Source of the DNA: a virus
IMG/VR virus record: IMGVR_UViG_3300033388_003070
Span: 1-22,296 of that record
Reading direction: 5' to 3' (one strand)
Length of the DNA stretch: 22,296 nt
Part shown: one piece after another, positions 3,397-22,142 of the stretch
Layout of the letters: each line of letters begins with the position of its first letter
Position numbering within the stretch: position 1 is the stretch's first letter
The notes under the pieces: model-generated
Seen by the model: only the letters and a program-made list of their open reading frames with translations
Databases searched by the model: none
Told to the model about the DNA's origin: nothing
Program-made: the position numbers and the translations under genes

Positions 3397-4956
3397 TTAC
3401 CAACTACCACCACTTTCACCTGTGTCTTCTCTGAAACCATATTCAATATCTTTTTTCATACCATCACGATTAGCTTGAATTTCTTCATCTGTCCATTTAA
3501 GATATTTTTTCATACAATAGTATTTACTCATTTCTTCTCTATCAGCTAGTGATGAATAATTATTATGTCTTGATTCTATAAAGTTTGCTTCCATTTGTTC
3601 TTTATATTTTGAAGGTGGGTTCATTAAAACTTGAATTTTTCTTTTATTCAATCCATATTGTTTTTTAAGACCTTTAAAATCTAAGTGAAGTAAAAATAAA
3701 TCAGTAAGTTCATTACTAAATTTCTTTTGTTGTCTTTCAAGAAATTTGCTCCATTTAATTTCATCCCTTGATATTTCACCTGTGCTTCCACCACCAAATA
3801 AACTATCTGCGTCAGTTTTTTCTTGACTAGCTGATACACGTGAAGCTGGATATTTTAATGCTCTATATAATTTTCTTGCAAAGTAATATACATCATCTAA
3901 TTCTGTAAAACCAGTAGCATTACCACCAACAGTTTCAATTTGACTACCACGGCCTTCAGCAGATTGAGGTAAATAATAGTTTTCAAGTAAGCTTAAAATT
4001 TCTGGTTCTTGTGATAGCTGACCAGTTGTTGAATTATAAGATTGCTTTTTGGTCATTTTTTGTTTTATTTTTTCAACATATTTTAAAGCTTTATCACGAG
4101 GCATGTTTCCAGTATCAATTCTAAATACAAATCTTTCAGGTGCTCGTATTATTCTGTAAATTATAACTGATGTTTCTAATAATTTTAATTGATTATATGG
4201 TACTTTTGATTTTTCAAGAAAACCAAATATTTCATATTTTGATTTACCAAATATTCCATAATTTATAAATCCTATTTGATTTGTATTAAACAGTACAATA
4301 TCTTCTCTTGACTCTGCTTCTTCAATACTTAATGGTCTTTTAGAATTAGGTTTTAAATATTGGAAAAAAGAAGTTACTTTACCTGTTAACGGATTATAAA
4401 TATAGTCCATTGTTTCACTTGGTAAAATTTTAATATTTATGATACCTTGTTTAGGATGTCTGCTGTCAATAATTCTTTCATAATAAACTCTGCCATCTAT
4501 ATAGTAATTTCTAAACATATTCCATAAATCATCTTCTGAATTTATACTATTACTAAATAATTTACTAAATTCACTATTTAGATTTTTTATAATATTTTCA
4601 TTGTCAGCTAATGATTTGTCTTTTATTTCAAGATGAAGTAATACACCATCTTCATCTATTTGTGTTGATTCATTTACAGCATCTTCAATAACATCAGATA
4701 TTTCAGGCATGTCCGCCATTTGTCTATAAAAAGCAATTTTATTAACTTCATTTTCATATTGTTTATTAATATAATTATTATAAAATAAATTAAAAGATTG
4801 AACACCAACCTGACCAACACCATACATGTCTTCAGTGCTTTCCCAACCTTCACCTTTTCTGGCAATAATGTCAGTTAATTTAGGTTTAGGTCTTTCCTCA
4901 AACGCTTTTATTTCTTCAGTTAATGTATCTTTTTTAAAGTAACTTATTATACCCAT
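3397..4956 (-). CDS. 20: Portal vertex protein gp20
   Basis: Portal protein that forms the dodecameric ring at the head vertex, nucleates head assembly and is the channel for DNA packaging. It has 519 residues (T4 gp20 about 524). Recognisable family blocks are FYRQMADMPEISDVIEDAVNE near residues 80-100 (T4-type 'R-m---pEvd-AI-EIVNEAI'), DGRVYYERIID, INIKILPSETMDYIYNPLTG, IYRIIRAPERFVFRIDTGNMP with PRDKALKYVEKIKQKM (the most conserved gp20 stretch), and the glycine-rich ETVGGNATGFTELDDVYYFARKLY followed by ALKYPASRV. The C-terminus ends GFREDTGESGGSW. An AGGAGAA site precedes the ATG and a perfect late promoter lies 20 nt upstream. The reading frame is intact. Confidence 0.96.
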   Translation of the reverse strand: MGIISYFKKDTLTEEIKAFEERPKPKLTDIIARKGEGWESTEDMYGVGQVGVQSFNLFYNNYINKQYENEVNKIAFYRQMADMPEISDVIEDAVNESTQIDEDGVLLHLEIKDKSLADNENIIKNLNSEFSKLFSNSINSEDDLWNMFRNYYIDGRVYYERIIDSRHPKQGIINIKILPSETMDYIYNPLTGKVTSFFQYLKPNSKRPLSIEEAESREDIVLFNTNQIGFINYGIFGKSKYEIFGFLEKSKVPYNQLKLLETSVIIYRIIRAPERFVFRIDTGNMPRDKALKYVEKIKQKMTKKQSYNSTTGQLSQEPEILSLLENYYLPQSAEGRGSQIETVGGNATGFTELDDVYYFARKLYRALKYPASRVSASQEKTDADSLFGGGSTGEISRDEIKWSKFLERQQKKFSNELTDLFLLHLDFKGLKKQYGLNKRKIQVLMNPPSKYKEQMEANFIESRHNNYSSLADREEMSKYYCMKKYLKWTDEEIQANRDGMKKDIEYGFREDTGESGGSW

Positions 4957-5644: not shown

Positions 5645-5652
5645 TTTTTATA
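5645..5652 (-). promoter_or_regulatory. Possible late promoter for the 216-residue protein (TATAAAAA)
   Basis: One mismatch to the late octamer, 20 nt upstream of the ATG at 5625, the same spacing as the perfect copy ahead of gp20, and again lying at the stop codon of the upstream gene. Suggestive but weak in AT-rich DNA. Confidence 0.35.
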
Positions 5653-6238
5653 CTATTGTAAAGTTAACCCAATTTCCATGAGTTCTGTTATTACTACTAT
5701 TCCAATCCATACCATCCATTGTAATTACTTGCCATGTATAATTACCTGGTACTAAATTTACATTATAATTAAAATTACCAACATATCTTTCATTAACAAC
5801 ATAATCATTTTGGTCATAGATTTGAATGCCATAATAAATATCATATCCTGGGTCGGCTACTTCATCCCATGTAAATGTTGTGCTTGTTGGAACAATAGCA
5901 CCCGCAGAAGGAAACATTGTTTGAGTATCAACAGCTGGGATTGATCTGTTGATTGTTTGTGTTTCGACATATTCTACAGTTTCACCACCTATTGTTATAG
6001 AAAATGTATAACTACCCAATGGAGGAGATATACCATTAAATTGTCTCAAAATATACTGTTTATCATCTCTAAATACAAAGTTTGATAATAAACTAGCAGT
6101 AAATCCACTTGGACCTGTAACAGTAATATTTGTAATATCTGTTGATAAATCTCCTATATAATTTTTAAAATTAAATTCTACCCATGTGTCAACTCCGTTG
6201 ACACATTTTATACTTATTGTATAATTAAAATTAGCCAT
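5648..6238 (-). CDS. Ig/fibronectin-III-like beta-sandwich protein, possible virion surface protein
   Basis: A 196-residue protein rich in Thr, Asn, Tyr and Val with alternating hydrophobic patterns typical of beta sandwiches. Two domains seem likely: residues about 1-105, and about 110-196, where TTFTWDEVADPGYDIYYG, then NVNLVPGNYTWQVITMDG give the classic FN3/Ig pattern (a Trp in strand B and a Y-W-V strand near the end). Such domains are common on phage capsid decorations, tail tubes and fibres (for example T4 Hoc). The start at 6238 (MANFNYTIS) is chosen over an in-frame upstream ATG at 6286 because two AGGAGG sites lie just before it and the longer version begins with a basic tail coded by those sites. 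The first 25 nt overlap the GNAT gene. No signal peptide. It could be a substrate for the upstream modification genes, but that is conjecture. Confidence 0.75.
   Translation of the reverse strand: MANFNYTISIKCVNGVDTWVEFNFKNYIGDLSTDITNITVTGPSGFTASLLSNFVFRDDKQYILRQFNGISPPLGSYTFSITIGGETVEYVETQTINRSIPAVDTQTMFPSAGAIVPTSTTFTWDEVADPGYDIYYGIQIYDQNDYVVNERYVGNFNYNVNLVPGNYTWQVITMDGMDWNSSNNRTHGNWVNFTIV
6184..6206 (-). other. Perfect 10-bp hairpin early in the Ig-like gene
   Basis: A perfect inverted repeat: ten paired bases (ATGTGTCAAC with GTTGACACAT) around a three-base loop that reads GGA in the mRNA. It starts 32 nt inside the Ig-like gene and 7 nt past the GNAT stop codon. No T-run follows on the transcribed side, so it is not a typical intrinsic terminator. 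It may affect translation or stability of this messenger. Confidence 0.6.
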
Positions 6239-6708
6239 TTTAATCCTCCTTTTAATCCTCCTTTTAATTGTTTTATTACAAAACAATTAGGCCCAAATTC
6301 ATATTGTTCATCGAACTCAGACACTTGTTTAAAACCACACTTTAAATAAAATGGTAATGCACTTTTTCTTGGCATACTCCATATATATTTAAAACCAAGA
6401 ATATTAGCATATTTTATAGTTGCTTTAATTAATTTTTTACCTACACTTTTAAGTCTATATTCTGTATTTATATATAAACCTCTACTTCTACAAAAAGTAT
6501 TTGAAGTTGGTAATAAACTATTCACTCCAATTATTTTATTGTCATTATAACACGCAAAACATATTGGTTTATTTTCCATTATTTTTGGATTGTATTTTCC
6601 TAAGTAATCAATAGGATTACTTGACTCAATTTTTGTAACTCTCCCTTTCCAGAGTTTATCTTTCCATATAGGATAAATAGTTTCAAAATTTACAATTTTT
6701 ATTTTCAT
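6214..6708 (-). CDS. GNAT-family N-acetyltransferase
   Basis: A 164-residue acetyl-CoA-dependent acyltransferase of the GNAT fold. The core is visible as CFACYNDNKIIGVNSLL (strands 2-3), then GLYINTEYRLKSVGKKLI followed by KATIKYANILGFKY, whose R-x-K-x-V-G-K segment is the motif A pyrophosphate-binding loop (R/Q-x-x-G-x-G/A, with Lys in the last position). The later SALPFYLKCGFKQVSEFD is the usual 'A--fYek-GF' end. The substrate cannot be told from sequence. The start ATG overlaps the upstream stop by one base (TAATG). The last 15 or so residues (KGGLKGGLKWLILIIQ) are coded by the ribosome-binding repeat of the next gene and probably are a non-conserved tail. It is the last enzyme of the accessory operon. 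Confidence 0.88.
   Translation of the reverse strand: MKIKIVNFETIYPIWKDKLWKGRVTKIESSNPIDYLGKYNPKIMENKPICFACYNDNKIIGVNSLLPTSNTFCRSRGLYINTEYRLKSVGKKLIKATIKYANILGFKYIWSMPRKSALPFYLKCGFKQVSEFDEQYEFGPNCFVIKQLKGGLKGGLKWLILIIQ
6238..6261 (-). repeat. Tandem 12-nt repeat carrying a duplicated ribosome-binding site
   Basis: Two exact copies of a 12-nt unit (GGAGGATTAAAA on the coding strand) precede the ATG of the Ig-like gene. The near AGGAGG is 6 nt from the ATG, the ideal distance; the far one is 18 nt away. The same repeat lies in frame in the end of the GNAT gene, where it encodes a repeated Lys-Gly-Gly-Leu. Confidence 0.85.
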
Positions 6709-7916
6709 TACATATTCCTTATATTATGATAGTCAAAAACTGTTACACCTTGTTCAAATAATATTTCAACTGCTTTTTTACTTAATTTCATTTGCTCACT
6801 ACTTATTGAAGGTATAAATCCATAATAAAATGGACCTATATATAATTCTTTTTTTCTTTCATAGTTGTTAAAAACATATGTATTTAGTTTAGCTGATAGA
6901 AGATTTACTGAAAACGCAAACTTAATTTTATCATATGGTAATTGATTAAGGAAATTTTCTAATTCAATAATATCATTTAACTCTAAATTATTCCACCCTA
7001 AAATAAAAGGTAATTGAATTTGTATTGCTTCATGTCCTTGATTTGCTAATATATTTATTGTCTCTAAGGCTCCACTTACTGTTATATTTTTTTTAATATA
7101 TTTCAACATTCTATTAGATGGAAATTCTATTCCTACAATAAATTTAATTTGAGGTAATTTTTTAGTTTTGTTACTAAATATTTCAGTTAAAGCTTTTCTT
7201 TCAGATTCATTTCCCCTCAAGTATATGTCATATCTTATTTTTTTATTATAATCTAGTTTATATAATAATTCTTTTATCTGTGCTGAAGTTGTTGATGGGG
7301 TATATAAATTTACCCTTTGTTTTCCTGTATAGTTTATATCTTCAAATTCAAAATTAATGTTTGGTCTTTTTCTTGATCCCTGAGAATAATTACAAAAAAT
7401 ACATTTACCCCAATAACAAAAACTGCTTAGTGTATATGTGTATGAAAGAGTCATTGATTCATCATTATCAGGTAATTCTAAATTCCATTTACTTGAAAAG
7501 TTTGGTACATTAAAATATTCTTCCATGGTTTTTGTTGTTAAATACATGTTAATTGGAAACGTAAAATTAGACGTTGTAAACACATTAGAATTTGCAGCTG
7601 GTCCACCAACAACAAAATGTATATTTGGATATTGTAATGCCCATTGATAACATTGATATAATTGACTTAAGTAATAGACACTAACATAAGCTGTTCCATA
7701 TTCGATAGGAAGATTTACTTTAATTTTCTCTATTTTATTTTTACCATATCCATATAATTGTTTGCTGTGATTAACCCAATAAAAATCTCCTTTAGATTTG
7801 CATAAGTCATATGTGTCAGAAAAACCATTACACAATTCATAAATAGAGTGTCCTTTAAATCTTGGATTGGTATTTTCTATTTTTGAGTAGAACTGTATAA
7901 ACAAGACATCTTTCAT
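6708..7916 (-). CDS. Radical SAM protein with cobalamin-binding-like N-terminal domain (paralogue 1 of 3)
   Basis: A 402-residue member of a tandem trio. The start at 7916 (MKDVLFIQF) is chosen because it aligns exactly with MSNVLFIQF and MDTLFIQF of the paralogues and overlaps the upstream stop as ATGA. The N-terminal part (about 1-140) is Rossmann-like, with YPNIHFVVGGPA resembling the B12-binding domain of class B radical SAM enzymes, but no D-x-H-x-x-G cobalamin ligand is visible. The cluster motif is C167-YWGK-C172-IF-C175, spaced CX4CX2C instead of the common CX3CX2C, and identical in spacing in all three copies. Further on, GIEFPSNRMLKYIKKNITV matches the 'GiEsgsd-vLk-inKg-t' region of MiaB/Elp3-like radical SAM barrels. 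Substrate unknown. Confidence 0.82.
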   Translation of the reverse strand: MKDVLFIQFYSKIENTNPRFKGHSIYELCNGFSDTYDLCKSKGDFYWVNHSKQLYGYGKNKIEKIKVNLPIEYGTAYVSVYYLSQLYQCYQWALQYPNIHFVVGGPAANSNVFTTSNFTFPINMYLTTKTMEEYFNVPNFSSKWNLELPDNDESMTLSYTYTLSSFCYWGKCIFCNYSQGSRKRPNINFEFEDINYTGKQRVNLYTPSTTSAQIKELLYKLDYNKKIRYDIYLRGNESERKALTEIFSNKTKKLPQIKFIVGIEFPSNRMLKYIKKNITVSGALETINILANQGHEAIQIQLPFILGWNNLELNDIIELENFLNQLPYDKIKFAFSVNLLSAKLNTYVFNNYERKKELYIGPFYYGFIPSISSEQMKLSKKAVEILFEQGVTVFDYHNIRNM

Positions 7917-9088
7917 TTTTTTCTCCTGGTTGTAGGAGGAACCATATATGTCCAATTAACTGGTATTTGTTTCATTAATTCCAAAGCTTCTATGTTAATC
8001 TTTAATTCATCATCAGTCAACTCTACAAAATAACCTCTATAAAAGTCTTCCTCATATACATGTCTGCGAACTCTATCCTTATATAAATCATAAAGAGGTG
8101 TATTTATTTTGAAAAATGTTTTAAAAATAATAACTGCGTCCACTTTTGATACTTTTGATATAAAGTATTTTAAACTATCAATATCACTTCTGTTAAGAGT
8201 TGGCCATCCTATCATATACAGTGTATAGAAATTAACATTATCAAATTTACTAGATATAGATAGTGCTTTTAAAATACCTTCTACTGTGGTTCCCTTTTTT
8301 ATAAATTTTAACATCTTATCTGATGGAAACTCTATTCCAAATCTAAACTTTAAATTTGGAATTGTACCTTTAAAATTCGTTAAATTGTTTTCTAATGATT
8401 TGATTACATCTTGATCGCATCTCATCATAAAATCATATTCTATATCTTCTCTATAGCTTATGTTTTTAAATACCTTTTCTAAAAAATAAGAAGTAATTCC
8501 TGGTGACCCCACTTTTACTTGTTTGATTCCATCAAACTCAATACTATTAATATATGACATATCCACACAATCTCTTATTCTACTATTGAAAGAGTAATTA
8601 CAAAAGATACATTTTCCCCAATAACAAATTGTATCCAAATTATATGAGAATATAAGCACATCAAATTTACTAAGATCGTCATCTATATCTGATAGTTCTA
8701 GTTTCCATTTACGAGAAAAATTAGGTTCATTAAAATATTCTTCTACACTTTTTGTACTATACTCTATATTTGGAGGACTTATTGATTTACAATCAAATCC
8801 ACTTAATACAGCAGGACCACCAACAACAAAATGTATATCTGGGTATTTTTTTGCCCATTTAGTTGATTGAATAAGATGGGAAACATAAGACGCACTTATA
8901 AAAATAGTACCTTTGTTTATTGGAAGGTCGGGGTTTTTGTCTTGTAAATCTTTATCATTAATCCACAAAAAATCTCCTTTGTTTTTACATAAGTCGTATA
9001 TCTCAGAAAATCCATTACATAAAGCAAAACAAGGACCTGTTCTAGAACTTTTAAACTCTGAACAGAATTGTATAAATAAGGTATCCAT
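7913..9088 (-). CDS. Radical SAM protein with cobalamin-binding-like N-terminal domain (paralogue 2 of 3)
   Basis: A 391-residue paralogue of its two neighbours. It has LFIQF at the N-terminus, LCNGFSEIYDLCKNKGDFLW, and YPDIHFVVGGPAVLSGFD in the B12-domain-like part. The iron-sulfur motif is C155-YWGK-C160-IF-C163, and FRFGIEFPSDKMLKFIKKGT lies in the barrel. I place the start at 9088 (MDTLFIQF) from alignment with the paralogues; an in-frame ATG at 9103 would overlap the upstream gene and add five residues, and neither has a Shine-Dalgarno, so translation probably depends on reinitiation two bases after the upstream stop. Extra cysteines near residues 9-34 are not shared by all copies. The three copies are too diverged to be simple recent duplicates, so each may have its own step or substrate. 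Confidence 0.82.
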   Translation of the reverse strand: MDTLFIQFCSEFKSSRTGPCFALCNGFSEIYDLCKNKGDFLWINDKDLQDKNPDLPINKGTIFISASYVSHLIQSTKWAKKYPDIHFVVGGPAVLSGFDCKSISPPNIEYSTKSVEEYFNEPNFSRKWKLELSDIDDDLSKFDVLIFSYNLDTICYWGKCIFCNYSFNSRIRDCVDMSYINSIEFDGIKQVKVGSPGITSYFLEKVFKNISYREDIEYDFMMRCDQDVIKSLENNLTNFKGTIPNLKFRFGIEFPSDKMLKFIKKGTTVEGILKALSISSKFDNVNFYTLYMIGWPTLNRSDIDSLKYFISKVSKVDAVIIFKTFFKINTPLYDLYKDRVRRHVYEEDFYRGYFVELTDDELKINIEALELMKQIPVNWTYMVPPTTRRKK

Positions 9089-9090
9089 AT

Positions 9091-10275
9091 TTAAAAAACC
9101 CATTTAGATGAAGCAAGTTGATTTTCATCCCATGAAAAAACTTTGTTCGCCATACCTTTAATTATTTCTGATGCTTGTTGATTAAGTTTTATTTGTTCGT
9201 TTTTCAATTTTGGAAAATATCCTTTATAAAAAGAACCAGAAAACATTTTCTTTTTAATACTATCCAGATATATATCATGTAACTTAGATCCAACAGGACA
9301 AAATAGGTTAAAAATAAAAGTACGTTTAATATAACCAACTTTATTTATAAACTCCTTTAGAGATTTAACATCGTTTTTATTAAGGTCTGGCCATCCTACT
9401 ATAAACATAGAGTATATTTGTATATTATCATACTGGTTTAATATCTTGATAGTTTGTAAAATATCTTGAACTGTAGTTCCTTTATTAGCAAACTTTAATA
9501 TTCGGTCTGATGGAAACTCTATTCCTATTCTAAATTTAAGATTTGGAATAGTACTTTTAAAATTTTTGAACACTTTATTTAGTGCAATATATTCATTTTT
9601 TTGACCTCTTAAATATACATCATAAAAAATATTTTTATTATATGATAAATTGGGTATAACTTTTTTAATATTTGTACAAGTGATTGCGTTTGTATTTAGT
9701 CGAGCTAGTTTTACTCCATCAAATTCTATATCTTCAATACAAGATGTTTGCCAATTTTCTCTTGTTCTTTTAATACTTTTTGGCATACTACAAAAATCAC
9801 ACTTTCCCCAGTAACAAAAATTATTGGAAATTGTATATCCAAAACATATAGTATCATATAAATGTGTTGGTTCTGGTATTTCGTTTATTTTTAATTTCCA
9901 TTCTCCAGAAAAGTTATCAACATTAAAATATTCTTCTACTGATTTTGTTGTTAATTCTAAGTTAGGAACTAAACCATAGATGTTTTTATGTGTATTTACT
10001 GCGGGGAAACCAACTATAGGACCACCAACTACAAATTTAATACCTGGATATTTTTTAGTCCACTTAAATACTTGTATTAATTGTGTCATAAAAGTAGCAC
10101 TGACATAAATAGTACCCTTAGTTATAGGAAGATTTAATGTACTCATTTCATGTTCATCAACCCAATAAAAATCGCCTTTGTTTTTGCATAAATCATAAGT
10201 ATCAGAAAACCCATTACACATTATCAAACGTCCATCAAGATTATAATAAAACTGAATGAATAATACATTACTCAT
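9091..10275 (-). CDS. Radical SAM protein with cobalamin-binding-like N-terminal domain (paralogue 3 of 3)
   Basis: A 394-residue protein, first of the trio in transcription order. N-terminus MSNVLFIQFYYNLDGRLIMC, then CNGFSDTYDLCKNKGDFYWV shared with the others; YPGIKFVVGGPIVGF is the B12-domain-like segment. The cluster motif is C154-YWGK-C159-DF-C162, and IGIEFPSDRILKFANKGTTV lies in the barrel. C20 and C30 are kept in all three copies, which may mean a structural or redox role. A GGGAG site precedes the ATG, which overlaps the upstream PP-loop gene by 8 nt. Known relatives of this architecture (class B radical SAM) methylate unactivated carbons or do ring chemistry, but lack of a visible cobalamin ligand leaves B12 use uncertain. 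Confidence 0.83.
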   Translation of the reverse strand: MSNVLFIQFYYNLDGRLIMCNGFSDTYDLCKNKGDFYWVDEHEMSTLNLPITKGTIYVSATFMTQLIQVFKWTKKYPGIKFVVGGPIVGFPAVNTHKNIYGLVPNLELTTKSVEEYFNVDNFSGEWKLKINEIPEPTHLYDTICFGYTISNNFCYWGKCDFCSMPKSIKRTRENWQTSCIEDIEFDGVKLARLNTNAITCTNIKKVIPNLSYNKNIFYDVYLRGQKNEYIALNKVFKNFKSTIPNLKFRIGIEFPSDRILKFANKGTTVQDILQTIKILNQYDNIQIYSMFIVGWPDLNKNDVKSLKEFINKVGYIKRTFIFNLFCPVGSKLHDIYLDSIKKKMFSGSFYKGYFPKLKNEQIKLNQQASEIIKGMANKVFSWDENQLASSKWVF

Positions 10276-11344
10276 ATTTTAAATCTCCCATTAGTTTATC
10301 ATAAGGTATAGTTACTACATTATTTCCTGGACTATCAAAAGGATGTTTTGCTGTAATTTCATCAGTATATTTTAGTATTAAAGGTTGTAAGTGTTCTAAC
10401 CCTGTATATTTTGGTCTTGGTTCAAGTTCAGGCCAATATTTATGTTTTATATTTATCTTTGCTCTCATAATATTGTTACCACCACCCAAATGACCAACTT
10501 TTTTATATTCTTCACTTGTTAATAATTTTCCACCATAAGGATAAAGTCTGTTTTCTGGCAATAACTCCAATGTACAATATGTTAACCAATCTTGAAGTAT
10601 ATCATCGAGTAAAGCAGAATATAATAATTCTGCAGTATACAAAGAGAACAAACTACATCCATCTATATTATGTTCTTCCATATAAGATGATAAATTTATA
10701 TATGATTCATATACCATTAGGTAAATATCATCATCTAATCTTCTGTTAGGATTCCATGCTGAGGGTCTAATACCACACCCAGGAAAGTGAGAAGGATTTT
10801 TATAACATTGTTTTTTGATATTTAATATATCATGGGACAACATCGGGTCTCCATCTCCAAAAATTTGAAAACCAAACCCGTTATCTAAAAACATCTTTTG
10901 TAAATTTTTTTGCCAAAGAGGATTTGGATACTTAACATTTCTGTATTGGTAACAATCACTTTCTAAAAATTCTTCAATGTCTAAATCAAAAAAAGAGTAT
11001 TCTACATTATTTTCTTTACAAAATTTTACAGCAAAATCAATATCATGTTTATTAAGATTGTTTTTAAAATTACATATTCTAACTTTAAATGGACGACCGG
11101 CTTCAAGAAACGATCTACAAATAATTTCACTATCTATACCTCCAGAAAAGTGAACTACAATATGTTTGTCAGTTGATTGATACATCAAATCTGCTGCTCT
11201 TATACACTCAGACCTCCAATCCATCGCTTCTTGAGTACAACTACCAATTTTATACCAAAAAATATCTTCATCATTTTCTCTTTTACCATATAGTTTATTA
11301 CCCCAACCATATGTTATATAATTGTTATGATATTGGTCGCTCAT
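10268..11344 (-). CDS. PP-loop ATP pyrophosphatase, asparagine synthetase-like
   Basis: A 358-residue enzyme with the PP-loop S67-GGID-S72 in VVHFSGGIDSEIICRSFLEAG, the ATP-binding signature of enzymes that adenylate a carbonyl before adding nitrogen or sulfur. The second block, FQIFGDGDPMLSHD near residue 160-175, resembles the G-x-G-x-D/E of the asparagine synthetase synthetase domain. There is no N-terminal Cys2 glutaminase domain, so ammonia or another amine donor must come from elsewhere. There is no C-terminal zinc Cys cluster as in QueC. N-terminal residues 1-70 resemble those of the next PP-loop gene, with the S/T-E-C-I-x-A-A segment just before the loop. Sugar amidotransferases of the WbpG/PseA type are one known use of this fold near glycan genes. 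ATGA overlap with the upstream gene. Confidence 0.8.
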   Translation of the reverse strand: MSDQYHNNYITYGWGNKLYGKRENDEDIFWYKIGSCTQEAMDWRSECIRAADLMYQSTDKHIVVHFSGGIDSEIICRSFLEAGRPFKVRICNFKNNLNKHDIDFAVKFCKENNVEYSFFDLDIEEFLESDCYQYRNVKYPNPLWQKNLQKMFLDNGFGFQIFGDGDPMLSHDILNIKKQCYKNPSHFPGCGIRPSAWNPNRRLDDDIYLMVYESYINLSSYMEEHNIDGCSLFSLYTAELLYSALLDDILQDWLTYCTLELLPENRLYPYGGKLLTSEEYKKVGHLGGGNNIMRAKINIKHKYWPELEPRPKYTGLEHLQPLILKYTDEITAKHPFDSPGNNVVTIPYDKLMGDLKYE

Positions 11345-12657
11345 TTTTTCATTTCCTTATATATACATGTATAAACTGGAGCATTGTCTGGTCTATTACT
11401 TGTGTGTTTAAATCCTTTTCGTTTTAACATTTCTTTTTGAGTTTGTGCTCCTGGTAACCATTGAGCTTGTATTGTATGAATAACCATGTCTGGATACATT
11501 TCTGCTTCTTTCATTTTAAAATTCCATAAAGCTTTGATAGCTCCAAGTCCTCTATACTTAGGAAATGTGTATGAACTATGTGCGTATCCACCTTTATTAC
11601 CTTTAAATAAATCAAAACATGTGAGAGCAACTAATATATCATTTATATAAGCTGCAAAATAATTTTTTGTTTCTATTACATCATCATAAGGTGATCTTAG
11701 CAATGTCATGTTTTCTTTTTCATAATAAGGTTGGTATTGTAACATTTCTTCTCTAGTTATTTTCTTACATTTAATAGGAGATAAAATATAAACTAAATCT
11801 GTTATGGATGTTTTAACAATACCATCGCTACCATTAAATTTGTTTTCTAAATATGGTCGATACAAATTATAATCTAATTCTTTATATTTTTCAAATCCTG
11901 TATATATTGTTCTTTCAGTTAAATTTTTCCAGTATTTATTATATAGTTTATTTTTTTCATAATATGTACTTGACTCATTATTAATATCAATCATATCAGT
12001 TATTACTTGGTCAGTTATGAATGATAACATTAATTCTGGTGTATATTGAAAAAATCCTGGTGTTCCTTCTTTATTATTTACTAGAAAATGTCTATACCAA
12101 GATGATATTTTTTCCTTTTCCCATAATTCCCAAATAAGTTCTTCATTTTTAGCTATGTAACATTCACCACTACCTAAAACAACATGACCATTAACTTGAT
12201 CTGATAACCACATAATCACTGGAAGTTGTGGTGATATACAATTAGTTTTTGTTGCGTATTTCATTAACTCATTTTTCCAGAAGTTAATAATATTAATATT
12301 ATAAATTTTATAAGGAATGTTATATTCAGTACAAAATTTAAGAGCATGTTCTATATCATCTTTATTAATAAAACCATCAAAAAAAGCAATTATACAAGTA
12401 ATTGGAATATTTGCTTCAATAAAACTACGAGCAACTATTTCTGAATCAATTCCTCCTGACAATAATATATATATTGGAAGGTCAGTATTTTCTTTTATTT
12501 TACAAGCAGCTAATATACATTCTGTTCTAAAATCAAAAGGGTCATTTTTACATCGTCCATATTTTACATTCCACTTATCTTCTGGAGATTTTCTCAAGTT
12601 AAAATACTCTCCATTATAACCAAATTTAAAATGATTTTTATATGTTAAATTTTTCAT
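11341..12657 (-). CDS. PP-loop ATP pyrophosphatase fused to a GNAT acetyltransferase
   Basis: A 438-residue two-domain protein. The N-terminal part has the PP-loop S67-GGID-S72 in YILLSGGIDSEIVARSFIEA at the same residue numbers as in its neighbour, and GHVVLGSGECYIAKNEE as the second block. From about residue 325 to the end there is a GNAT domain: YFAAYINDILVALTCFDLF, then FPKYRGLGAIKALWNFKM with the R-G-L-G-A acetyl-CoA loop, and EMLKRKGFKHTSNRP at the end. The frame is continuous across the junction, so the fusion is genuine in this sequence. It suggests one protein activates or amidates a substrate and acylates the same or a linked group. It overlaps both neighbours by ATGA. Its N-terminal opening (FDFRTECILAACKI) is homologous to that of the other PP-loop gene, so the two arose by duplication. 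Confidence 0.82.
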   Translation of the reverse strand: MKNLTYKNHFKFGYNGEYFNLRKSPEDKWNVKYGRCKNDPFDFRTECILAACKIKENTDLPIYILLSGGIDSEIVARSFIEANIPITCIIAFFDGFINKDDIEHALKFCTEYNIPYKIYNINIINFWKNELMKYATKTNCISPQLPVIMWLSDQVNGHVVLGSGECYIAKNEELIWELWEKEKISSWYRHFLVNNKEGTPGFFQYTPELMLSFITDQVITDMIDINNESSTYYEKNKLYNKYWKNLTERTIYTGFEKYKELDYNLYRPYLENKFNGSDGIVKTSITDLVYILSPIKCKKITREEMLQYQPYYEKENMTLLRSPYDDVIETKNYFAAYINDILVALTCFDLFKGNKGGYAHSSYTFPKYRGLGAIKALWNFKMKEAEMYPDMVIHTIQAQWLPGAQTQKEMLKRKGFKHTSNRPDNAPVYTCIYKEMKK

Positions 12658-13571
12658 ATGAAGTGTACTAACTCTGATATTTTACATTTACACACATTAG
12701 CGCAGGAGTTTAATTTATTAATATTTTCAAAAACATAATCATAAAATTCATTTTCTATTACATCGTTGTATGAATTATTATTTAAGTCAAGAAAAGGTAT
12801 ATTTTTTTCAAACAAATCAATAAAATCTTTACTTTCATCTTTGTAATGATGTCTTTTTGAACTTAATAAGTAGCATGAACATAATATTCCATCAACATTT
12901 AAAAAAAATTCATTTCTATCAATCATAAGACAATCTATTTTTTTACGCTCAAAAGCAAAATCACCTTGAGTTTTAATTTTGATTTTTGTTGGTCGTTCAA
13001 AAACGTCGTTATATTCTTTTGATGGTCTATAATAAATTTTACGACAACCAATTTTCATTGACAATTTTTTTAAATCATTTAACTGATGTTCATTATGTTT
13101 AAATAGTATTGTTTGTATGAGGGATATTCCTCTACCATCATTGAATGCTTTTATATTTTTAACAACTTGTTTAAAATCTGTACCAACTCTATAAAGACTG
13201 TGTGTATCTTCCATACCATCTAAAGCAAATATCACATAACCTGAGTCAATTTTGCTAAAGTATTTTGCTAAATTATACCACCATTGTTCATTATGAGTAA
13301 ATCCATTTGTTGTTAATCTTATTTGAAGATTATTATTTGTTTTACGTAAATAATCAATAAGTTCATCAAATTGAGGGTATGATGTAGGTTCCCCTAAACT
13401 TCCAGAAAGAACAACTACTTTATATGTTTCAAAAGGTATCTTTTTAATTGTATCTAATTTTAAATCAATTATTTCTTTCAAATTCATTAGAACTCTTGTG
13501 CAAAGTGGACAACGAGCTGTGCACCTTGTGGTTAGTTCTATATTTACACAAGTAATATCTAAATTTTTCAT
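12654..13571 (-). CDS. Radical SAM protein with C-terminal SPASM/twitch-like cysteines
   Basis: A 305-residue radical SAM enzyme. The cluster motif is at the very N-terminus, ELTTRC17-TAR-C21-PL-C24, the canonical CX3CX2C. The GGEP-type SAM-binding motif is altered to SGSLGEPT (about residues 57-64), followed by IRLTTNGFTHNEQW and YVIFALDGMEDTHSLYRVG, which fit the usual strands. After the barrel, the cysteines in LNVDGILCSCYLL and in NSCANVCKCKISE suggest an auxiliary [4Fe-4S] cluster domain of SPASM or twitch type, common in enzymes that act on peptides or on sugars (for example anSMEs and BtrN). The protein is at the short end for SPASM proteins. It overlaps the methyltransferase upstream and the PP-loop/GNAT gene downstream by ATGA. 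Confidence 0.87.
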   Translation of the reverse strand: MKNLDITCVNIELTTRCTARCPLCTRVLMNLKEIIDLKLDTIKKIPFETYKVVVLSGSLGEPTSYPQFDELIDYLRKTNNNLQIRLTTNGFTHNEQWWYNLAKYFSKIDSGYVIFALDGMEDTHSLYRVGTDFKQVVKNIKAFNDGRGISLIQTILFKHNEHQLNDLKKLSMKIGCRKIYYRPSKEYNDVFERPTKIKIKTQGDFAFERKKIDCLMIDRNEFFLNVDGILCSCYLLSSKRHHYKDESKDFIDLFEKNIPFLDLNNNSYNDVIENEFYDYVFENINKLNSCANVCKCKISELVHFI

Positions 13572-14191
13572 TTCACTCCTATTATCATAAATCGTTTATA
13601 ATCTATAACATTTATTTCACCATTATATAAAATATGAAACAATTTATATTTTAATTTCATTTCTTCTAAACTATTTACACAATTAATATGTTCTTCAAAT
13701 TGAGTTGCATTATTAGACTGAAGAATAACAAGAGTTCCTTCTTTAATTTTTTTGAACCATTTGTTATCTATAATATGCTCACAAGATGTATTAATAACGG
13801 TATTAATACCGTTAAATTCTATTTCATTAATATCTTTGGTAAAAGATTTAAATTTCCAATCATTTATTACATGACTTATATTTAATTCATCTGCTATTTT
13901 AGCGCATGATGGGTCAATATCAAAAGAATGTATTTTATCTACCATGTCATTTTCAAATAACATTTCAGCAAGTATCCCATACCAACCACATAATAAATAA
14001 GTAATCTTTAAAGGAATATTTAAATATTTCATTTCTTTAATCAACCAAATTTTACTATATAATTGTCCTTTTGATAAACTATCTAAATTAAAATCTGGAT
14101 ATGTTTTTATTACTTCAGAAACGTTATTTAAAAATTCAAAACTAGTTTTATAAATTTTTAATTCTTTTCTTATATATTTCCAAATATCCAT
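13568..14191 (-). CDS. Class I SAM-dependent methyltransferase-like protein
   Basis: A 207-residue protein with a Rossmann methyltransferase layout. Residues 62-76, KITYLLCGWYGILAE, correspond to motif I (usual form V-L-D-x-G-C-G-x-G; the acidic residue and glycine pattern are changed here to LLCGWYG). IHSFDIDPSCAKIAD follows, with the acidic D91/D93 that normally bind the SAM ribose. TVINTSCEHIID is the motif IV-like strand and LVILQSNNATQFEEHI a later one. An N-terminal helical part (1-60) precedes the fold. The substrate is unknown; other readings include a methyltransferase-like protein without activity. GGAGG lies 7 nt before the ATG, which directly follows the upstream stop. Phages with similar clusters carry comparable proteins, but that is from memory. 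Confidence 0.72.
   Translation of the reverse strand: MDIWKYIRKELKIYKTSFEFLNNVSEVIKTYPDFNLDSLSKGQLYSKIWLIKEMKYLNIPLKITYLLCGWYGILAEMLFENDMVDKIHSFDIDPSCAKIADELNISHVINDWKFKSFTKDINEIEFNGINTVINTSCEHIIDNKWFKKIKEGTLVILQSNNATQFEEHINCVNSLEEMKLKYKLFHILYNGEINVIDYKRFMIIGVK
13795..13814. repeat. Perfect 20-bp palindrome inside the methyltransferase gene
   Basis: TAACGGTATT followed directly by its reverse complement AATACCGTTA, with no spacer. It lies within coding sequence (Asn-Gly-Ile-Asn-Thr-Val). It could be a protein binding site or a chance result of codon choice. Confidence 0.6.
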
Positions 14192-15307
14192 TTAACCTCC
14201 CATCATACTATTTATTATTCCAGTAAAATTTTGTTTAACAAGAGTAATATCATTATCTGAAAAATACTTGTCCAACCATACATAAAATTCTTCATATTTT
14301 TTTACTATAATCTTTTTTTCTTTTATATTCATATTACGAATATCTAATATCTGTGGACTGGAAAGTATATTAAAATGTGGTTCTAGTCTTATTTTTTTAA
14401 AATTTAGTTGTGAATACCATTTAAACATATCTATTACATTTAAAATATTTTCAGTACATACAGTTATAGCAAATGAGGCAAAAGTATTTGAGTGTGAATA
14501 TTTTTCAAATAATTCTAAATTTTTCTTTACAATATTCCATTTTGCAGGGTATCTTATTTTTTCAAAAGTATCATTAATTCCATCAACTGAAAAACCAACT
14601 CTTACGTTTTTAAACTTCTTCCAAGTATCCAACATTTTTTTAGTTAGAACTATACCATTGGTATTATAATCTAAATGAATATGATTATTATGGTTCTTTT
14701 CTATTATAATCTGTAAAAGATTCCAATGGTTTTTTATTATTGTTGGTTCACCACCAGTTATATAAATTTTGTTTATATATTGTAAATTTTTAATTAACTC
14801 TTTTATATAGGGAGTATCTAAATTACCAGACCAATCTATAATTTTGTTATTCCACATACTTGAATTTGCTCTATCACATATAATACATTTACCATTACAT
14901 TTATTCCCAAATCGTAAATCATAATATTCTATTGGAAAATCTTTTTCTTTAATTGAACCGTCTTTGCTTGTCAGTTTAATTGCTTTTTTTATTAATTCTG
15001 GATAAAAAGAATTATTAACTTGTCTATTACTATCAAGACTAACTAATTCTCTATTCCAACATTGACTACATAATATATGTTTTTGTCCTGCTAACATAGA
15101 TTTTCTTAATTCTTTATATAAGATATGATTTCTTGGAATTGTATCTTTTTCTGCATTTTTTCTAGTTCCATCCAATCTTCTTAAAAAAGAAAAAGGAGAA
15201 TGATTGCAAATACAACAAATTCTTATATCACCTATGCTATTTACACTAGAATGAATCCACGGTAAAGGACAAAATGTTTTATTGATTTTTAAAGTATTCA
15301 ATTTCAT
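14192..15307 (-). CDS. Twitch-domain radical SAM protein
   Basis: A 371-residue enzyme with an auxiliary cluster domain before the radical SAM barrel. The N-terminus has TFC13-PLPWIHSSVNSIGDIRIC-C and further cysteines at C34, C80 and C83 (ILCSQCWNRE), typical of the phage and bacterial 'twitch domain' radical SAM family that begins F-C-PLPW-H. The catalytic motif is C137-NGK-C141-II-C144, followed by YITGGEPTIIKNHW (GGEP motif, residues 185-188), DYNTNGIVLTKKMLDTW and VGFSVDGINDTFEKIR in the barrel. Substrates of this family are unknown to me. The start at 15307 overlaps the upstream gene by 29 nt and is fixed by the conserved FCPLPW end. The stop abuts the methyltransferase start. Confidence 0.88.
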   Translation of the reverse strand: MKLNTLKINKTFCPLPWIHSSVNSIGDIRICCICNHSPFSFLRRLDGTRKNAEKDTIPRNHILYKELRKSMLAGQKHILCSQCWNRELVSLDSNRQVNNSFYPELIKKAIKLTSKDGSIKEKDFPIEYYDLRFGNKCNGKCIICDRANSSMWNNKIIDWSGNLDTPYIKELIKNLQYINKIYITGGEPTIIKNHWNLLQIIIEKNHNNHIHLDYNTNGIVLTKKMLDTWKKFKNVRVGFSVDGINDTFEKIRYPAKWNIVKKNLELFEKYSHSNTFASFAITVCTENILNVIDMFKWYSQLNFKKIRLEPHFNILSSPQILDIRNMNIKEKKIIVKKYEEFYVWLDKYFSDNDITLVKQNFTGIINSMMGG

Positions 15308-16361
15308 TATCTTTATAATTTGTTAACTTACTGGGGTCAGCTAAGCTTCTTATTGGAACTAAACTACATACTCCTTTTATTCTTCCATCTGCACCAGGTT
15401 TATGAAGTCTATCTAATTTTTCAATTTTATCTTTGAATTTTAATGCTTCATTTAATTTACCTGGTGGTGTCATTAATTTTACTTCAATCCAATTTTCATC
15501 AGATATAGAATCATGTCTATCCATAAATATTTGTAATACATGAATAAAATGTTGTTTATTCATATATTCAAAATGAGCACTTAAATTTATATTATTGATA
15601 TATTTACAAGCTTCTTTCCAAAATGATAATCTTTTTGAAACATTACTTGTTACTAGAATATTTTGATTTCTTGATTTTAAATAACTTATAATATCAATAA
15701 AACCAGGATGTGTAGTTGGTTCTCCACCACCAAAGTTCCATCTTATTTTATTTCCTTGTGTACAATTAATAAAATTATTACATGATTCTAAAATTAAATC
15801 TATTGGTATAAATTTTTCTACTTTGTTATGTATTCCTGGCCAACAATACGAACAATTATAATTACATCGTCTTGTTAAATCCCATAATATTTGATATGGT
15901 ATTGGAAAGTTCATTTCAACAGCACAATGATTTCCAATAGATTTTTTTAAATTTTTATTAGTTCTATCTTGACCATAGTATCCATCTTTTGTAACGGCAA
16001 GAAGATTTTTACATCTATTTGTTTTACTAACTATTATATCAGCACCACATGAACATGTTTTAAATTCACATATATTCCATTGTTTTAAAGGAAACCATCC
16101 ATCATATATATTTCCAATTAGTCCTTTATGTTCTCCAACTTTAAGTTTTTTAATTACATTATTTTTATTATATATATTAATTGATGAACTTGCTGTATTA
16201 CAAATCAAAATATTTCCATCATAATCAATATATAAACTTCTAACTCCAGCTGCGCATAACCATCCTTTCCAATGATTAAACCCTCGTGCTATTGCTTCAT
16301 CAACTGACACACGAATAAATTTTCCACTAATATCATATATTCTTAATTGTTTATTACTCAT
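15279..16361 (-). CDS. Radical SAM protein with N-terminal auxiliary Fe-S domain
   Basis: A 360-residue radical SAM enzyme. The start at 16361 (MSNKQLRIYD) is chosen because AAGGAG lies 8 nt upstream and it forms an ATGA overlap with the previous gene; an in-frame upstream start would add six residues. The N-terminal domain has GWLC36-AAG, IDYDGNILIC54, then IC98, TC103-S-C105-GADI and RC. The radical SAM motif is RRC166-NYN-C170-SY-C173, with GGGEPTTHPGF (about 211-221) and ILVTSNVSKR in the barrel. The GW-C-AG...ID-G...C...C-C domain is also found in the protein encoded just upstream (16358-17302), but there at the C-terminus. The last 29 nt overlap the next gene. Confidence 0.87.
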   Translation of the reverse strand: MSNKQLRIYDISGKFIRVSVDEAIARGFNHWKGWLCAAGVRSLYIDYDGNILICNTASSSINIYNKNNVIKKLKVGEHKGLIGNIYDGWFPLKQWNICEFKTCSCGADIIVSKTNRCKNLLAVTKDGYYGQDRTNKNLKKSIGNHCAVEMNFPIPYQILWDLTRRCNYNCSYCWPGIHNKVEKFIPIDLILESCNNFINCTQGNKIRWNFGGGEPTTHPGFIDIISYLKSRNQNILVTSNVSKRLSFWKEACKYINNINLSAHFEYMNKQHFIHVLQIFMDRHDSISDENWIEVKLMTPPGKLNEALKFKDKIEKLDRLHKPGADGRIKGVCSLVPIRSLADPSKLTNYKDNEIEYFKNQ

Positions 16362-17302
16362 GGTTTCTCCTTGGTACACATTATATCAAAATTACAATGA
16401 CAATATTCACGGTTACATATTATTGGATTAATTGGAAGTTTAACATGATGTTTAATATCTCCTAAATTACCGCCTTCTAAACACCATCCCCTCCATACTA
16501 GTCCATTTGTATCTATAACTATTTGTTCAATACCTGCATAGCATTTCCATCCTTTCCAATTATTTGATTTTTCAATAATAAATTTATGACATGAAATTAC
16601 TTTTTCTGTATTATGTCCAATTAATTTCATTGCCCCTCTAAATGACGGCCAATAATTATTCCATTTTATTTTACCCGTATATAATTTTCCTTGATTAGTA
16701 ATAATTTCTTTTTGTTTTTCTGTGTATTCATATAATTCATCTTTAAAGTCTACTAAAAGGGGTTGAAGTGCCATTGATACATTTGTAATATCTTTAACAA
16801 TTTTTTCAGCAATCTTTAAACATAAATTAAAATGATTGGGGTGCATCATTATATTAATATGTATTTTCATATAATTGTTTAATAATTTTATTACTTTAAT
16901 ATAATGATTTTTATTTGAAAATTCTGGATGAAAACTTAAACAAGTATTATCAATTTTGTCTTTTATATTATCCCACCATTTTAGTGATTGACTTCCATTG
17001 GATATTATTCCAACAGTAACATTTTCATAAAATTTTAAAAATGTTACAAGGTCATAAAAACCATACCAATATGTTACTTCACCACCTGTAAATTCAAAAT
17101 GTATATTTTTATTTTTATAATGTTTAATAATTTTCTTACAAAAATTAATAATAATATTCAAATCAAGTTTTTCAGATGAACCACTGTGAAGAAAATCAGG
17201 ACAATAAGAACATTTATAATTACATGAATTTAATAAACACCAATTAACAACTACAGTATCTTTAGCAAATTGTTTAGCATGTTCTAATTTATAGTATTCC
17301 AT
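16358..17302 (-). CDS. Radical SAM protein with C-terminal auxiliary Fe-S domain
   Basis: A 314-residue radical SAM enzyme. The start at 17302 (MEYYKLEHAKQF) makes a TAATG junction with the upstream gene; an upstream in-frame start is possible but adds only MGICI. The motif is NSC27-NYK-C31-SY-C34-PDFLHSG, and the SAM-binding loop reads FEFTGGEVTYWYGF, with Val replacing Pro in GGEP. VTVGIISNGSQSLKWW and TCLSFHPEFSNKNHY follow in the barrel. The C-terminal domain (about 235-314) reads GWKCYAGIEQIVIDTNGLVW, then GWCLEGGNLGDIKHH, and ICNREYCHCNFDI, a SPASM/twitch-like cluster domain. It is likely partner or paralogue of the next radical SAM gene, which carries the same domain on the other side. 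Confidence 0.87.
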   Translation of the reverse strand: MEYYKLEHAKQFAKDTVVVNWCLLNSCNYKCSYCPDFLHSGSSEKLDLNIIINFCKKIIKHYKNKNIHFEFTGGEVTYWYGFYDLVTFLKFYENVTVGIISNGSQSLKWWDNIKDKIDNTCLSFHPEFSNKNHYIKVIKLLNNYMKIHINIMMHPNHFNLCLKIAEKIVKDITNVSMALQPLLVDFKDELYEYTEKQKEIITNQGKLYTGKIKWNNYWPSFRGAMKLIGHNTEKVISCHKFIIEKSNNWKGWKCYAGIEQIVIDTNGLVWRGWCLEGGNLGDIKHHVKLPINPIICNREYCHCNFDIMCTKEKP

Positions 17303-18237
17303 TATACATATTCCCATGGTTTATAATTATAACTTATCATTTTATTTGTTAATTCCTTTTTAGTTGTTATTATTTTATTACTTGAATCAAATTTTATATC
17401 AAAGTGTTTTAAATAATCTGTTAGTCCATCATCAGTATAAGGTTCATTAAAAAATTGAACAGTTTTTCCTAATAATATATATTCAAATATTAGTCTACCA
17501 AATTGCTCTTGATATTCAAGATATTTTCTTCTTCTATATATAAAAGTTTTATAATTAAATAAATGATTTGATTCATTATATTTTAGAGGAACTTTAACAC
17601 CATTTTTTATTATCCAATCTGGTTCAAAACTAAAACCTTTTCCAAACTTATCTATTAATAATTTAGAATATTTTTTATCGTCATCCCATCTAAAAAAATA
17701 TTCGTTTTTGTTTTCATATTTGATAGTATTCAACATATCAATATTAATATTTTTAAAGAATACTTCAGCATTTAAATCTGGATATTTATTTTTAAATATC
17801 TTATAGTTATTTGGAGGCATTAGAAATATAGTTTCTTTTGTATAAAAGTTTCTTAGTGTTTCATATAAATCAACTTCATTAAAAAATCTAGCATATTTCA
17901 TATCTTTTAAATGATAAGTTAACTCAATAGAATCCATCACTAATAATTTTTTACATATAACATATATTCCTAATTCTTTAGCAGAAATAAGAGTTTTAAA
18001 ATCTGTTATAACAATACCAGGTTCTATGATTTCTTTTTTTAGAATTTTTATTTCACCTTTACCTAATACATATGACCGTTTAGTATTATTAATAATTTCA
18101 TATAATCTTTTTACATTTTCACAATAGAATTTAATTTTATATCCTTCTCTGTCTTTTAAATGTTGTTGAATGTCAAGATGATTTAAATACGAACCTTGAG
18201 TTCCTTTTTGGTAAGTTATAAATACTATTTCTTTCAT
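17302..18237 (-). CDS. Probable GT-B-type glycosyltransferase
   Basis: A 311-residue protein starting MKEIVFITYQKGTQGSYLNH; an upstream in-frame ATG (18309) is rejected because it would overlap the previous gene by 71 nt and adds a non-conserved basic stretch. The first half looks like a Rossmann domain (IVFITYQ, YKIKFYCENVKRLYE, GIVITDFKTLISAKELGIYVICKK). The second half has KTFIYRRRKYLEYQEQFGRL followed by IFEYILLGKTVQFFNEPYTDDG, which fits the donor-binding end of GT-B enzymes (a conserved Glu in a segment before 'E-l-lGk-V'). No Walker or other motif is seen. Sugar donor and acceptor are unknown. Other readings: a phage-specific Rossmann protein with no transferase activity. Confidence 0.6.
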   Translation of the reverse strand: MKEIVFITYQKGTQGSYLNHLDIQQHLKDREGYKIKFYCENVKRLYEIINNTKRSYVLGKGEIKILKKEIIEPGIVITDFKTLISAKELGIYVICKKLLVMDSIELTYHLKDMKYARFFNEVDLYETLRNFYTKETIFLMPPNNYKIFKNKYPDLNAEVFFKNINIDMLNTIKYENKNEYFFRWDDDKKYSKLLIDKFGKGFSFEPDWIIKNGVKVPLKYNESNHLFNYKTFIYRRRKYLEYQEQFGRLIFEYILLGKTVQFFNEPYTDDGLTDYLKHFDIKFDSSNKIITTKKELTNKMISYNYKPWEYV

Positions 18238-18238
18238 G

Positions 18239-19186
18239 TTAAAAATCCTTACTAGTTCTGAGTGGATTTTTAAAAATCGACCTAAAAAATTTAGATGCGT
18301 TTTCATCAATCTCAGCTATTTCAAATTCCAGGTCATTTCTAATTTCTTCACCAAGTAATTTTATTTCTTGTATTAGTTTTTTATTATCCCAACAATATCC
18401 ACTTTTTGTACACATATGTTTGCTAGTATATGATTCAAATAATGGATATATTTCACTCAACCAGTAATTTTCTAAGTATTCAAAATCTCTTACATTTATA
18501 TAATCCCAATTAGTTAGGTTTGTTTTATATGCTCCAAGTCTTGCTCCGTAAATACTCCATAAACCATTTTCAACATCTGCTCCAACAGAACACCAAACTA
18601 ATAATCTAATAATATTTTTCCAGTACATTTGTTTTTTTAATTCTTTAATTGGAATTTTAACACCTTGGTTTAATGTCATTTTAACGCCTTCGCGAAATCC
18701 TGACCTCCATGCCTGTCTTGGTGAACCATTTGGATAAGTTATAGATGATACTTTATTACTATGAATATATCCCTTTTCAAAACAAAATTCAACTTTATTT
18801 TTTGGTTGATCTGAATTTTCATGTGTTTTCATTTTCATTACAAATGGTTTTGTCCAACATTTAAGACTTCCATTGCCATAAATTAAACCATTAACATAAT
18901 TCATACTGCTCCAACTAATAGTTTTTGTCATATCTTCAGCTATTTCTTTTGGTATTGATAAATCAAAAAATTCTGGTTTAATTATTGTATCAGCATCACA
19001 AGTAATAAATCTATCCGTATCTGATATTTGTGCTGCTGTTTTATGTGCTGCATCAGAACCATATACACCATGAACTCTTTTTACCCAAGGACATTTTTTT
19101 TGAATATTAGCCCAATGTTCATCAGCATTATCCTCATCATATGAAATAAAAATTATATCAAATTCTGTTACAGGTATTTCACTCAT
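18239..19186 (-). CDS. GT-A-type glycosyltransferase (phage family, DxD motif)
   Basis: A 315-residue protein. The start at 19186 (MSEIPVTEFD) has AAGGTG 8 nt upstream; the in-frame GTG three codons earlier is less likely. The N-terminal domain fits a GT-A fold: DIIFISYDEDNADEHWANI, WVKRVHGVYGSDAAHKTAAQ, then RFITCDADTIIKPEF, where D64-A65-D66 is the DxD metal and nucleotide-sugar site. SWSSMNYVNGLIYGNGSLKC follows as the conserved acceptor-side segment. The C-terminal 140 residues are helical and aromatic (VRDFEYLENYWLSEIYPLFE). Similar proteins annotated as glycosyltransferases are known in T4-like phages of marine bacteria (from memory). It overlaps the upstream gene by 8 nt and is 1 nt from the next start. 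Confidence 0.75.
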   Translation of the reverse strand: MSEIPVTEFDIIFISYDEDNADEHWANIQKKCPWVKRVHGVYGSDAAHKTAAQISDTDRFITCDADTIIKPEFFDLSIPKEIAEDMTKTISWSSMNYVNGLIYGNGSLKCWTKPFVMKMKTHENSDQPKNKVEFCFEKGYIHSNKVSSITYPNGSPRQAWRSGFREGVKMTLNQGVKIPIKELKKQMYWKNIIRLLVWCSVGADVENGLWSIYGARLGAYKTNLTNWDYINVRDFEYLENYWLSEIYPLFESYTSKHMCTKSGYCWDNKKLIQEIKLLGEEIRNDLEFEIAEIDENASKFFRSIFKNPLRTSKDF

Positions 19187-21796: not shown

Positions 21797-22142
21797 CCCA
21801 ATCAATTACCTTTTTTATATTTCTTATTTTATTAAGCTTTTGGTAATCTTTATAATATTGATTAATAACATTTTTATATCTTTTATAAACAACATTATAA
21901 AATTCTTGTAAGTCTGTAATTAAAATAGGGGCATCGTTAGTATCAAGAAAAACAAATTCACTTTCTTTTTTTGATAACAATGTAGAAATAAACAAAATTA
22001 ATTCTTTATCTATTTTAAATAAATTATTTTTATAAACTATTAATAATTTATTATTCATTAAAACTTTTAGATTTTTTTGTTTTGTAGATAATATTATTCT
22101 AAAATTTGAAAAATCTAAAGCTTTTTTTAAACGTTTATCCAT
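21789..22142 (-). CDS. Small conserved-type phage protein, function unknown
   Basis: A 117-residue Lys/Ile-rich protein. The N-terminal half looks like two beta hairpins (FRIILSTKQKNLKVLMNNKLL, LIVYKNNLFKIDKELILFIS) and the C-terminal half a long helix (QEFYNVVYKRYKNVINQYY then KDYQKLNKIRNIKKVIDWDE). The opening MDKRLKKALDFSNFRIIL and the ending RNIKKVIDWDE remind me of a small protein found near structural genes in T4-like cyanophages, but I cannot confirm that. It is the first complete gene after the late promoter at 22168, with an AAAGGTAAA-type ribosome-binding region, and its last codons overlap the first glycosyltransferase gene. It probably belongs to the structural neighbourhood rather than to the pathway. 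Confidence 0.7.
   Translation of the reverse strand: MDKRLKKALDFSNFRIILSTKQKNLKVLMNNKLLIVYKNNLFKIDKELILFISTLLSKKESEFVFLDTNDAPILITDLQEFYNVVYKRYKNVINQYYKDYQKLNKIRNIKKVIDWDE

Follow-up and report, generated by a model that had tools for sequence, protein, structure and literature searches.

The window that we analysed, the 22,296 nucleotides at positions 1 to 22,296 of IMG/VR virus record IMGVR_UViG_3300033388_003070, carries three neighbouring radical S-adenosylmethionine (SAM) genes, RS1, RS2 and RS3, which form a branch, carried by a phage in three copies, of a radical SAM family that had no name before; the branch is new, the kind of enzyme is known. From their sequences and models, the proteins are predicted to belong to the B12-domain-type radical SAM class, with cobalamin binding itself a candidate property only. 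On balance, we lean towards the view that they are three working copies of this one family and act as tailoring enzymes of a phage decoration island. All three are intact open reading frames (ORFs) that lie consecutively on the minus strand between positions 6708 and 10275, overlapping or abutting one another: RS1 (6708..7955) has 415 amino acids (aa) when counted from a TTG, RS2 (7913..9103) has 396 and RS3 (9091..10275) has 394. The probable starts of RS1 and RS2 are the ATG at 7913 and position 9088, respectively, and with these starts the three genes abut tightly. With RS3 as the reference they are ~43% identical, with ~90 invariant columns in the three-way alignment, and they share an identical FVVGGP segment and the motif CYWGKC-x-FC (CYWGKCIFC in RS1 and RS2, CYWGKCDFC in RS3). 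An earlier note, made from the sequence alone, had described three tandem radical SAM paralogues at this place, and that description is borne out.

Profile searches and structure models place these proteins among radical SAM enzymes. Against the Radical_SAM profile (PF04055; cut-off 29.5 bits), RS3 scores 26.7 bits (E=7.5e-6), or 29.7 bits with in-frame neighbours, and RS1 scores 17.8 bits (E=0.0039); RS2 has no Pfam match of its own and is assigned through the family alignment. The same profile is matched at E<0.1 by 20 of 21 family members. Searches of Pfam, NCBIfam and PHROG gave no named family above cut-off for RS1-RS3; the best NCBIfam match, TIGR04014 (MgmA), reaches 32 bits against a cut-off of 360 and covers only ~65 residues. 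Pfam matches to DAN, DSBA, DUF6123 and FANCL were set aside as sub-threshold noise. The B12-binding domain PF02310 is matched by none of the 21 members in a hidden Markov model search. When the family was aligned by hhalign with 15 CX4CX2C proteins, the match (99.4%, E=5e-21) extended over positions 70-399, a region that takes in the latter half of the B12-type domain together with the barrel.

We obtained two AlphaFold models of RS3. In both, the N-terminal domain is of the Rossmann type and six strands, in order, form a partial TIM barrel; the cysteine motif (154-162) comes after barrel strand 1 (142-146). Model 1, built from an alignment of 5 sequences, is weak (pLDDT 68, pTM 0.68); model 2, to whose alignment we added 19 remoter radical SAM proteins that share the motif, has a pTM of 0.77, although its N-terminal domain may lean towards the added proteins and only model 1 is independent of them. 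Foldseek matched model 1 to MiaB, RimO and AprD4 (6fd2), and matched model 2 additionally to MgmA (9ccb), OxsB, CysS, TokK and TsrM. The Rossmann-like N-terminal domain that the earlier note had read from the letters is seen in the models, and so is a radical SAM barrel around the cysteines, with these in the expected barrel loop. Together with the profile match to B12 domains, this supports homology between the N-terminal domain of RS1-3 and the B12 domains found elsewhere among radical SAM enzymes.

The cluster cysteines form a CX4CX2C motif (C154-YWGK-C159-x-F-C162 in RS3 numbering) that is identical in RS1-RS3 apart from the variable position and is kept in all 30 family members, a three-cysteine motif of the [4Fe-4S] type. 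Because all three copies and their relatives keep this spacing, a sequencing, assembly or frame error can be ruled out as its source, as had been argued before. The spacing had also been called atypical, and this does not hold: in a pattern scan, C[YWF]WG[KR]CxFC was found in at least 118 GTDB genome stretches, most of them within long radical SAM proteins from Bacteroidetes, Nitrospinae, Clostridia, CPR and other groups, and CX4CX2C has been published for the cobalamin enzyme GenD1 (PMC4340712). Fourteen of 15 tested proteins with the pattern match PF02310. The D-x-H-x-x-G motif is not present in RS1-RS3, and the family alignment confirms the earlier statement to that effect; its lack, however, is no argument against cobalamin, since Mmp10 has neither DxHxxG nor a lower axial ligand and still binds cobalamin (PMC8828468). 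Both features, CX4CX2C and an absent DxHxxG, are thus ordinary for the B12-domain radical SAM class. As a separate observation, loci L107-L224 include a very widespread Bacteroidetes radical SAM family of ~730 aa with the nearly invariant segment DGRWNKLTMAHGCYWGKCTFCD.

Conservation within the family extends beyond the motif. In addition to the three cluster cysteines, W156, GGP84-86, R223, G251, E253, S256, G294 and W295 are invariant in the 30 members. Gly157 of ‘WGK’ is confined to the viral copies and a few bacteria, most bacterial members having CYWKKC with Lys at 157. C20 and C30 are both present in RS1-RS3 and had been proposed to bind another cofactor as a pair; C30 is invariant (30/30), C20 is a Cys in only 24/30, and because of this variation the proposed pair is not supported.

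Searches of IMG/VR and INPHARED with RS3 alone or with the three-sequence alignment found no relatives; in a wider IMG/VR scan the only viral full-length relative was L009 (28-29% identity), on a 127-kb contig inside a glycosyltransferase-type cluster. A bacterial protein, L208, from a metagenome-assembled genome titled Deltaproteobacteria bacterium, shows 38% identity across 400 aa. With a profile of RS1-3, L009 and L208, we found a full-length or partial member, usually in single copy, in 30 of 291 genomes of L208’s class; an even draw across the phylum yielded members in 2 of 297 genomes, both already among the 30. A clade of homologues in other genomes, as the earlier note had envisaged, thus exists, and the two frequencies indicate a narrow chromosomal family that points to the phage’s host lineage; the host is probably of Deltaproteobacteria type. 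In the tree, RS1-3 form one clade with weak support (89/35) beside a bacterial clade (94/96); of the three, RS2 and RS3 are the closest pair (99/95), and the branches are long. An apparent 1336-aa fusion in L297 proved to be an artefact of reading through a run of N.

The bacterial members share a recurring neighbourhood. An ATP-grasp ligase of the GshB/RimK type (GSH-S_ATP/GSH-S_N or RimK) is present at 19 of 26 bacterial loci, and 18 of 26 have an SBP_bac_5 gene accompanied by Dpp-type permease and ATPase genes, in most cases oriented divergently to the radical SAM gene, both counts being uncorrected for relatedness among the genomes. At L290-L315 the radical SAM gene is divergent from a GshB-like ATP-grasp gene, which is followed by genes for a family-5 solute-binding protein and a Dpp-type transporter; L208 has genes for an N-formylglutamate amidohydrolase and for two ATPases as neighbours. 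In bacteria, the substrate is plausibly amino-acid- or peptide-like.

In the phage, RS1-3 lie in an island. The left end of the window has the gp23, gp22, gp21, gp20 order of a T4-like phage on the minus strand (phrog_138, 237, 207 and 213), with the gp20 portal gene at 3397..4956 (minus strand; phrog_213 E=7e-100; best matches in cultured phages ~30% identical). Transcriptionally upstream of gp20, between 6214 and 22142, the long genes are all on this same strand and mostly overlap or abut. Directly downstream of RS1 is a GNAT acetyltransferase gene (6214..6708; phrog_1249 E=8e-11; 33% identity to L238). On the other side of RS1-3 stand PP1 (10268..11344) and PP2 (11341..12657), adjacent paralogues at 10268-12657 that encode PP-loop ATPase-like proteins with SGGIDSE; their matches are weak and below cut-off (QueC, NAD synthase and ATP_bind_3 for PP1; NAD synthase and GNAT for PP2, which has a C-terminal GNAT-like domain). 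Four other radical SAM genes follow: rsA (12654..13571; Radical_SAM 45 bits), 30% identical to a Campylobacter phage CP220/F379 protein (F379_101); rsB (14192..15307), of the twitch-domain kind (NF033640 277 bits, above cut-off); rsC (15279..16379; Radical_SAM 42 bits), with a Cys-containing N-terminal part that is SPASM-like by eye and with homologues that adjoin Cys-rich tail genes; and rsD (16358..17317; Radical_SAM 31 bits), which is STM4011-like (NF038073 E=2.5e-12, below cut-off). Between rsA and rsB, mt (13568..14191) encodes a 207-aa island protein with 34% identity to its L348 homologue. Next is u335 (17302..18309), glycosyltransferase-like by eye and without a Pfam match, with 37% identity to L333/L366 and 34% to L348, and then further genes without a Pfam match, some glycosyltransferase-like by eye, at 18239-19195, 19179-20090, 20065-20934 and 20891-21805, all on the minus strand. 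Between the GNAT gene and a phrog_1409 gene, positions 5648-6286 encode a small protein that is Ig/Fn3-like by eye and has no PHROG match; it is a possible virion decoration protein.

The content of this site changes from relative to relative. The phages G003 and G012, with a 94%-identical portal, carry other radical SAM genes (~11 and ~7, respectively) between tail-fibre-like genes and gp20, together with genes that by eye are epimerase-, sulfotransferase-, deacetylase- and transferase-like; the RS1-3 family has no member in these near relatives. In L238 (portal 62%), radical SAM genes occur alongside aminotransferase-like and GNAT-like ones, and the number of radical SAM genes at the site is seven in the window and none in L237 (portal 66%). 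The site upstream of gp20 is therefore an exchangeable, hypervariable module among T4-like relatives (L227/L228, L237, L238 and the window).

If RS1-3 are working tailoring enzymes, the phage would have acquired the gene from its host lineage and then triplicated it. Each copy would cleave SAM reductively to a 5′-deoxyadenosyl radical, which would abstract hydrogen from an unactivated carbon; the substrate would be a small building block such as an amino acid, peptide or sugar. The island’s PP-loop ATPases, GNAT and transferases might then join the products into a structure that decorates the host surface or the virion and could be swapped rapidly under recognition pressure. The earlier note had suggested from the divergence of the copies that they may catalyse sequential or distinct reactions. 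Several observations weigh against this reading. In the phage, RS1-3 stand beside neither the ligase nor the peptide transporter that accompany the bacterial gene, and because of this the phage substrate may differ from the bacterial one. Q320, R322, W323, A326, H327 and P328, on and after strand 6, are conserved in all or nearly all bacterial members (25-26/26) and almost all replaced in RS1-3, only RS1 retaining A326; judged by sequence, this is consistent with a changed substrate pocket. Model confidence is low in the cluster loop, and the characterised relatives at the fold level share just ~10-17% identity with the family, too little to serve as a biochemical anchor. The L009 branch is too long to place. 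Finally, the divergence of RS1-3 is too deep for a selection test by rate, so one copy may have decayed in function.

As to chemistry, we consider cobalamin methyl transfer and AprD4-like cobalamin-free chemistry about equally likely. That RS1-3 are cobalamin-independent, with a relic B12 domain, and act on a sugar or amino acid in an AprD4-like way, by dehydration, epimerisation or deoxygenation, has a substantial claim that falls somewhat short of even. AprD4 is among the top structural matches of both RS3 models, no B12-domain Pfam match occurs in the family, and the islands of relatives contain sugar-type genes; however, the similarity to AprD4 is at the fold level only (12% identity), and MiaB/RimO and the cobalamin enzymes score equally well. 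That they are instead true cobalamin-dependent class B radical SAM methyltransferases, which C-methylate an island product, is a real possibility on the doubtful side. Their motif and homologous domain are common to proteins of which nearly all tested carry PF02310, the Foldseek matches include OxsB, TokK, TsrM, MgmA and CysS, and the best NCBIfam matches are B12 enzymes such as TIGR04014, albeit far below cut-off; against this stand the lack of any PF02310 match in the 21 members and the N-terminal half of the domain, which differs and lies outside the profile alignment.

The islands of near relatives bring in a further kind of gene. A Cys-rich repeat (CDCAYACT) tail-tip-like gene lies inside the island of G003 (18959-19507, equal to L319 5960-6508; also L359 and L349), and in both G003 and G012 such a gene is followed by an ORF for an S74-like chaperone (S74 by eye). 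Here and at loci L320-L371, (CTCNCNY)n tail-tip-like proteins recur beside radical SAM clusters, in many cases with an S74-type chaperone segment after them. A DNA pattern for C-x-C-[DN]-C-x-[YF]-x-C-x-C-[DN]-C matched 52 IMG/VR stretches, and radical SAM genes are present in 47 of 48 tested records with the repeat, usually 7-10 in each. By motif count, the density of radical SAM genes per 100 kb is 26.6 at Cys-rich loci, 3.0 in portal relatives and 0.32 in unrelated viral contigs. The counted radical SAM genes at Cys-rich loci are all on the strand of the Cys-rich gene, and the Cys-rich ORFs, which fall into 41 clusters at 80% identity, are mostly at most 1 kb from a radical SAM gene. In CP220 (NC_027997.1 16347-22100), a radical SAM gene related to the Cys-rich-adjacent ones lies ~5 kb upstream of the portal gene; gp020-gp022 beside it have no Cys-rich repeat. 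We found no publication on Cys-rich tail proteins together with radical SAM in the open-licence literature. The pairing is a candidate phage system for virion-protein maturation.

It seems unlikely to us that RS1-3 themselves are peptide-modifying radical SAM enzymes that help to mature a virion protein, for example a Cys-rich tail-fibre tip. The Cys-rich tail-tip gene inside the same island of the nearest relatives and the near-universal presence of radical SAM genes in Cys-rich records favour it, and the L348 island, of the Cys-rich type, holds homologues of rsA, mt and u335 as well as a 478-aa protein weakly similar to RS2; however, the window ends at 22296, before any Cys-rich tail gene, and thus contains no such substrate gene, and the RS1-3 family occurs in none of 35 Cys-rich records, which makes the connection an indirect one. 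We are just as sceptical of a broader version, in which the island would be part of a widespread phage system for radical SAM modification of a Cys-rich (C-x-C-[ND]-C-N-Y)n tail-fibre tip, a maturation of receptor-binding proteins like that of ribosomally synthesised and post-translationally modified peptides (RiPPs), with RS1-3 as a newly recruited B12-domain-type branch. Methylthiotransferases of the MiaB/RimO type are very improbable and we reject this assignment: MiaB and RimO come out at the top both in Foldseek and among PDB sequence matches, but three N-terminal cysteines bind a second cluster in those enzymes and the family has one invariant N-terminal Cys (C30), none of the 21 members matches UPF0004 or TRAM, and the motif is CX4CX2C rather than CX3CX2C.

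These results define an unnamed, lineage-restricted radical SAM family of the B12-domain type, of which the phage carries three copies, and show that CX4CX2C recurs as a signature of B12-domain radical SAM proteins and is no oddity. The reproducible bacterial neighbourhood of ATP-grasp ligase and peptide transporter is a route to the family’s substrate. The association of Cys-rich tail proteins with radical SAM genes in many uncultured phages would, if confirmed, open up virion-protein maturation by radical enzymes.

With the uncharacterised C[YWF]WG[KR]CxFC proteins of L107-L224, RS1-3 share CX4CX2C, the GG loop of the N-terminal domain and the G-x-E-x-x-S barrel segment; those proteins are ~450-760 aa long with PF02310 in 14/15, whereas RS1-3 are ~400 aa long, differ in the N-terminal half and lack PF02310. 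CX4CX2C is also found in the gentamicin C-methyltransferase GenD1 (PMC4340712), a likeness at the level of the motif; unlike RS1-3, GenD1 is larger and proven to be cobalamin-dependent. The radical SAM diol dehydratase AprD4, which acts on an aminosugar and has a fold with a B12-type domain but no cobalamin, resembles them in overall fold, including the N-terminal Rossmann-type domain, and MgmA resembles them by both its partial TIGR04014 match and its fold. Among phages, the T4-like Campylobacter phages CP220, CPt10 and F379 are similar in their 11-12 radical SAM genes, with five of the 11 in CP220 lying in an interchangeable module (PMC2853527); unlike the window, they have no member of the RS1-3 family, and their hosts and partner genes are others. 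The host-recognition islands of pelagimyophages, with their glycosyltransferases and radical SAM cassettes (PMC7029224), are similar in spirit to the island described here.

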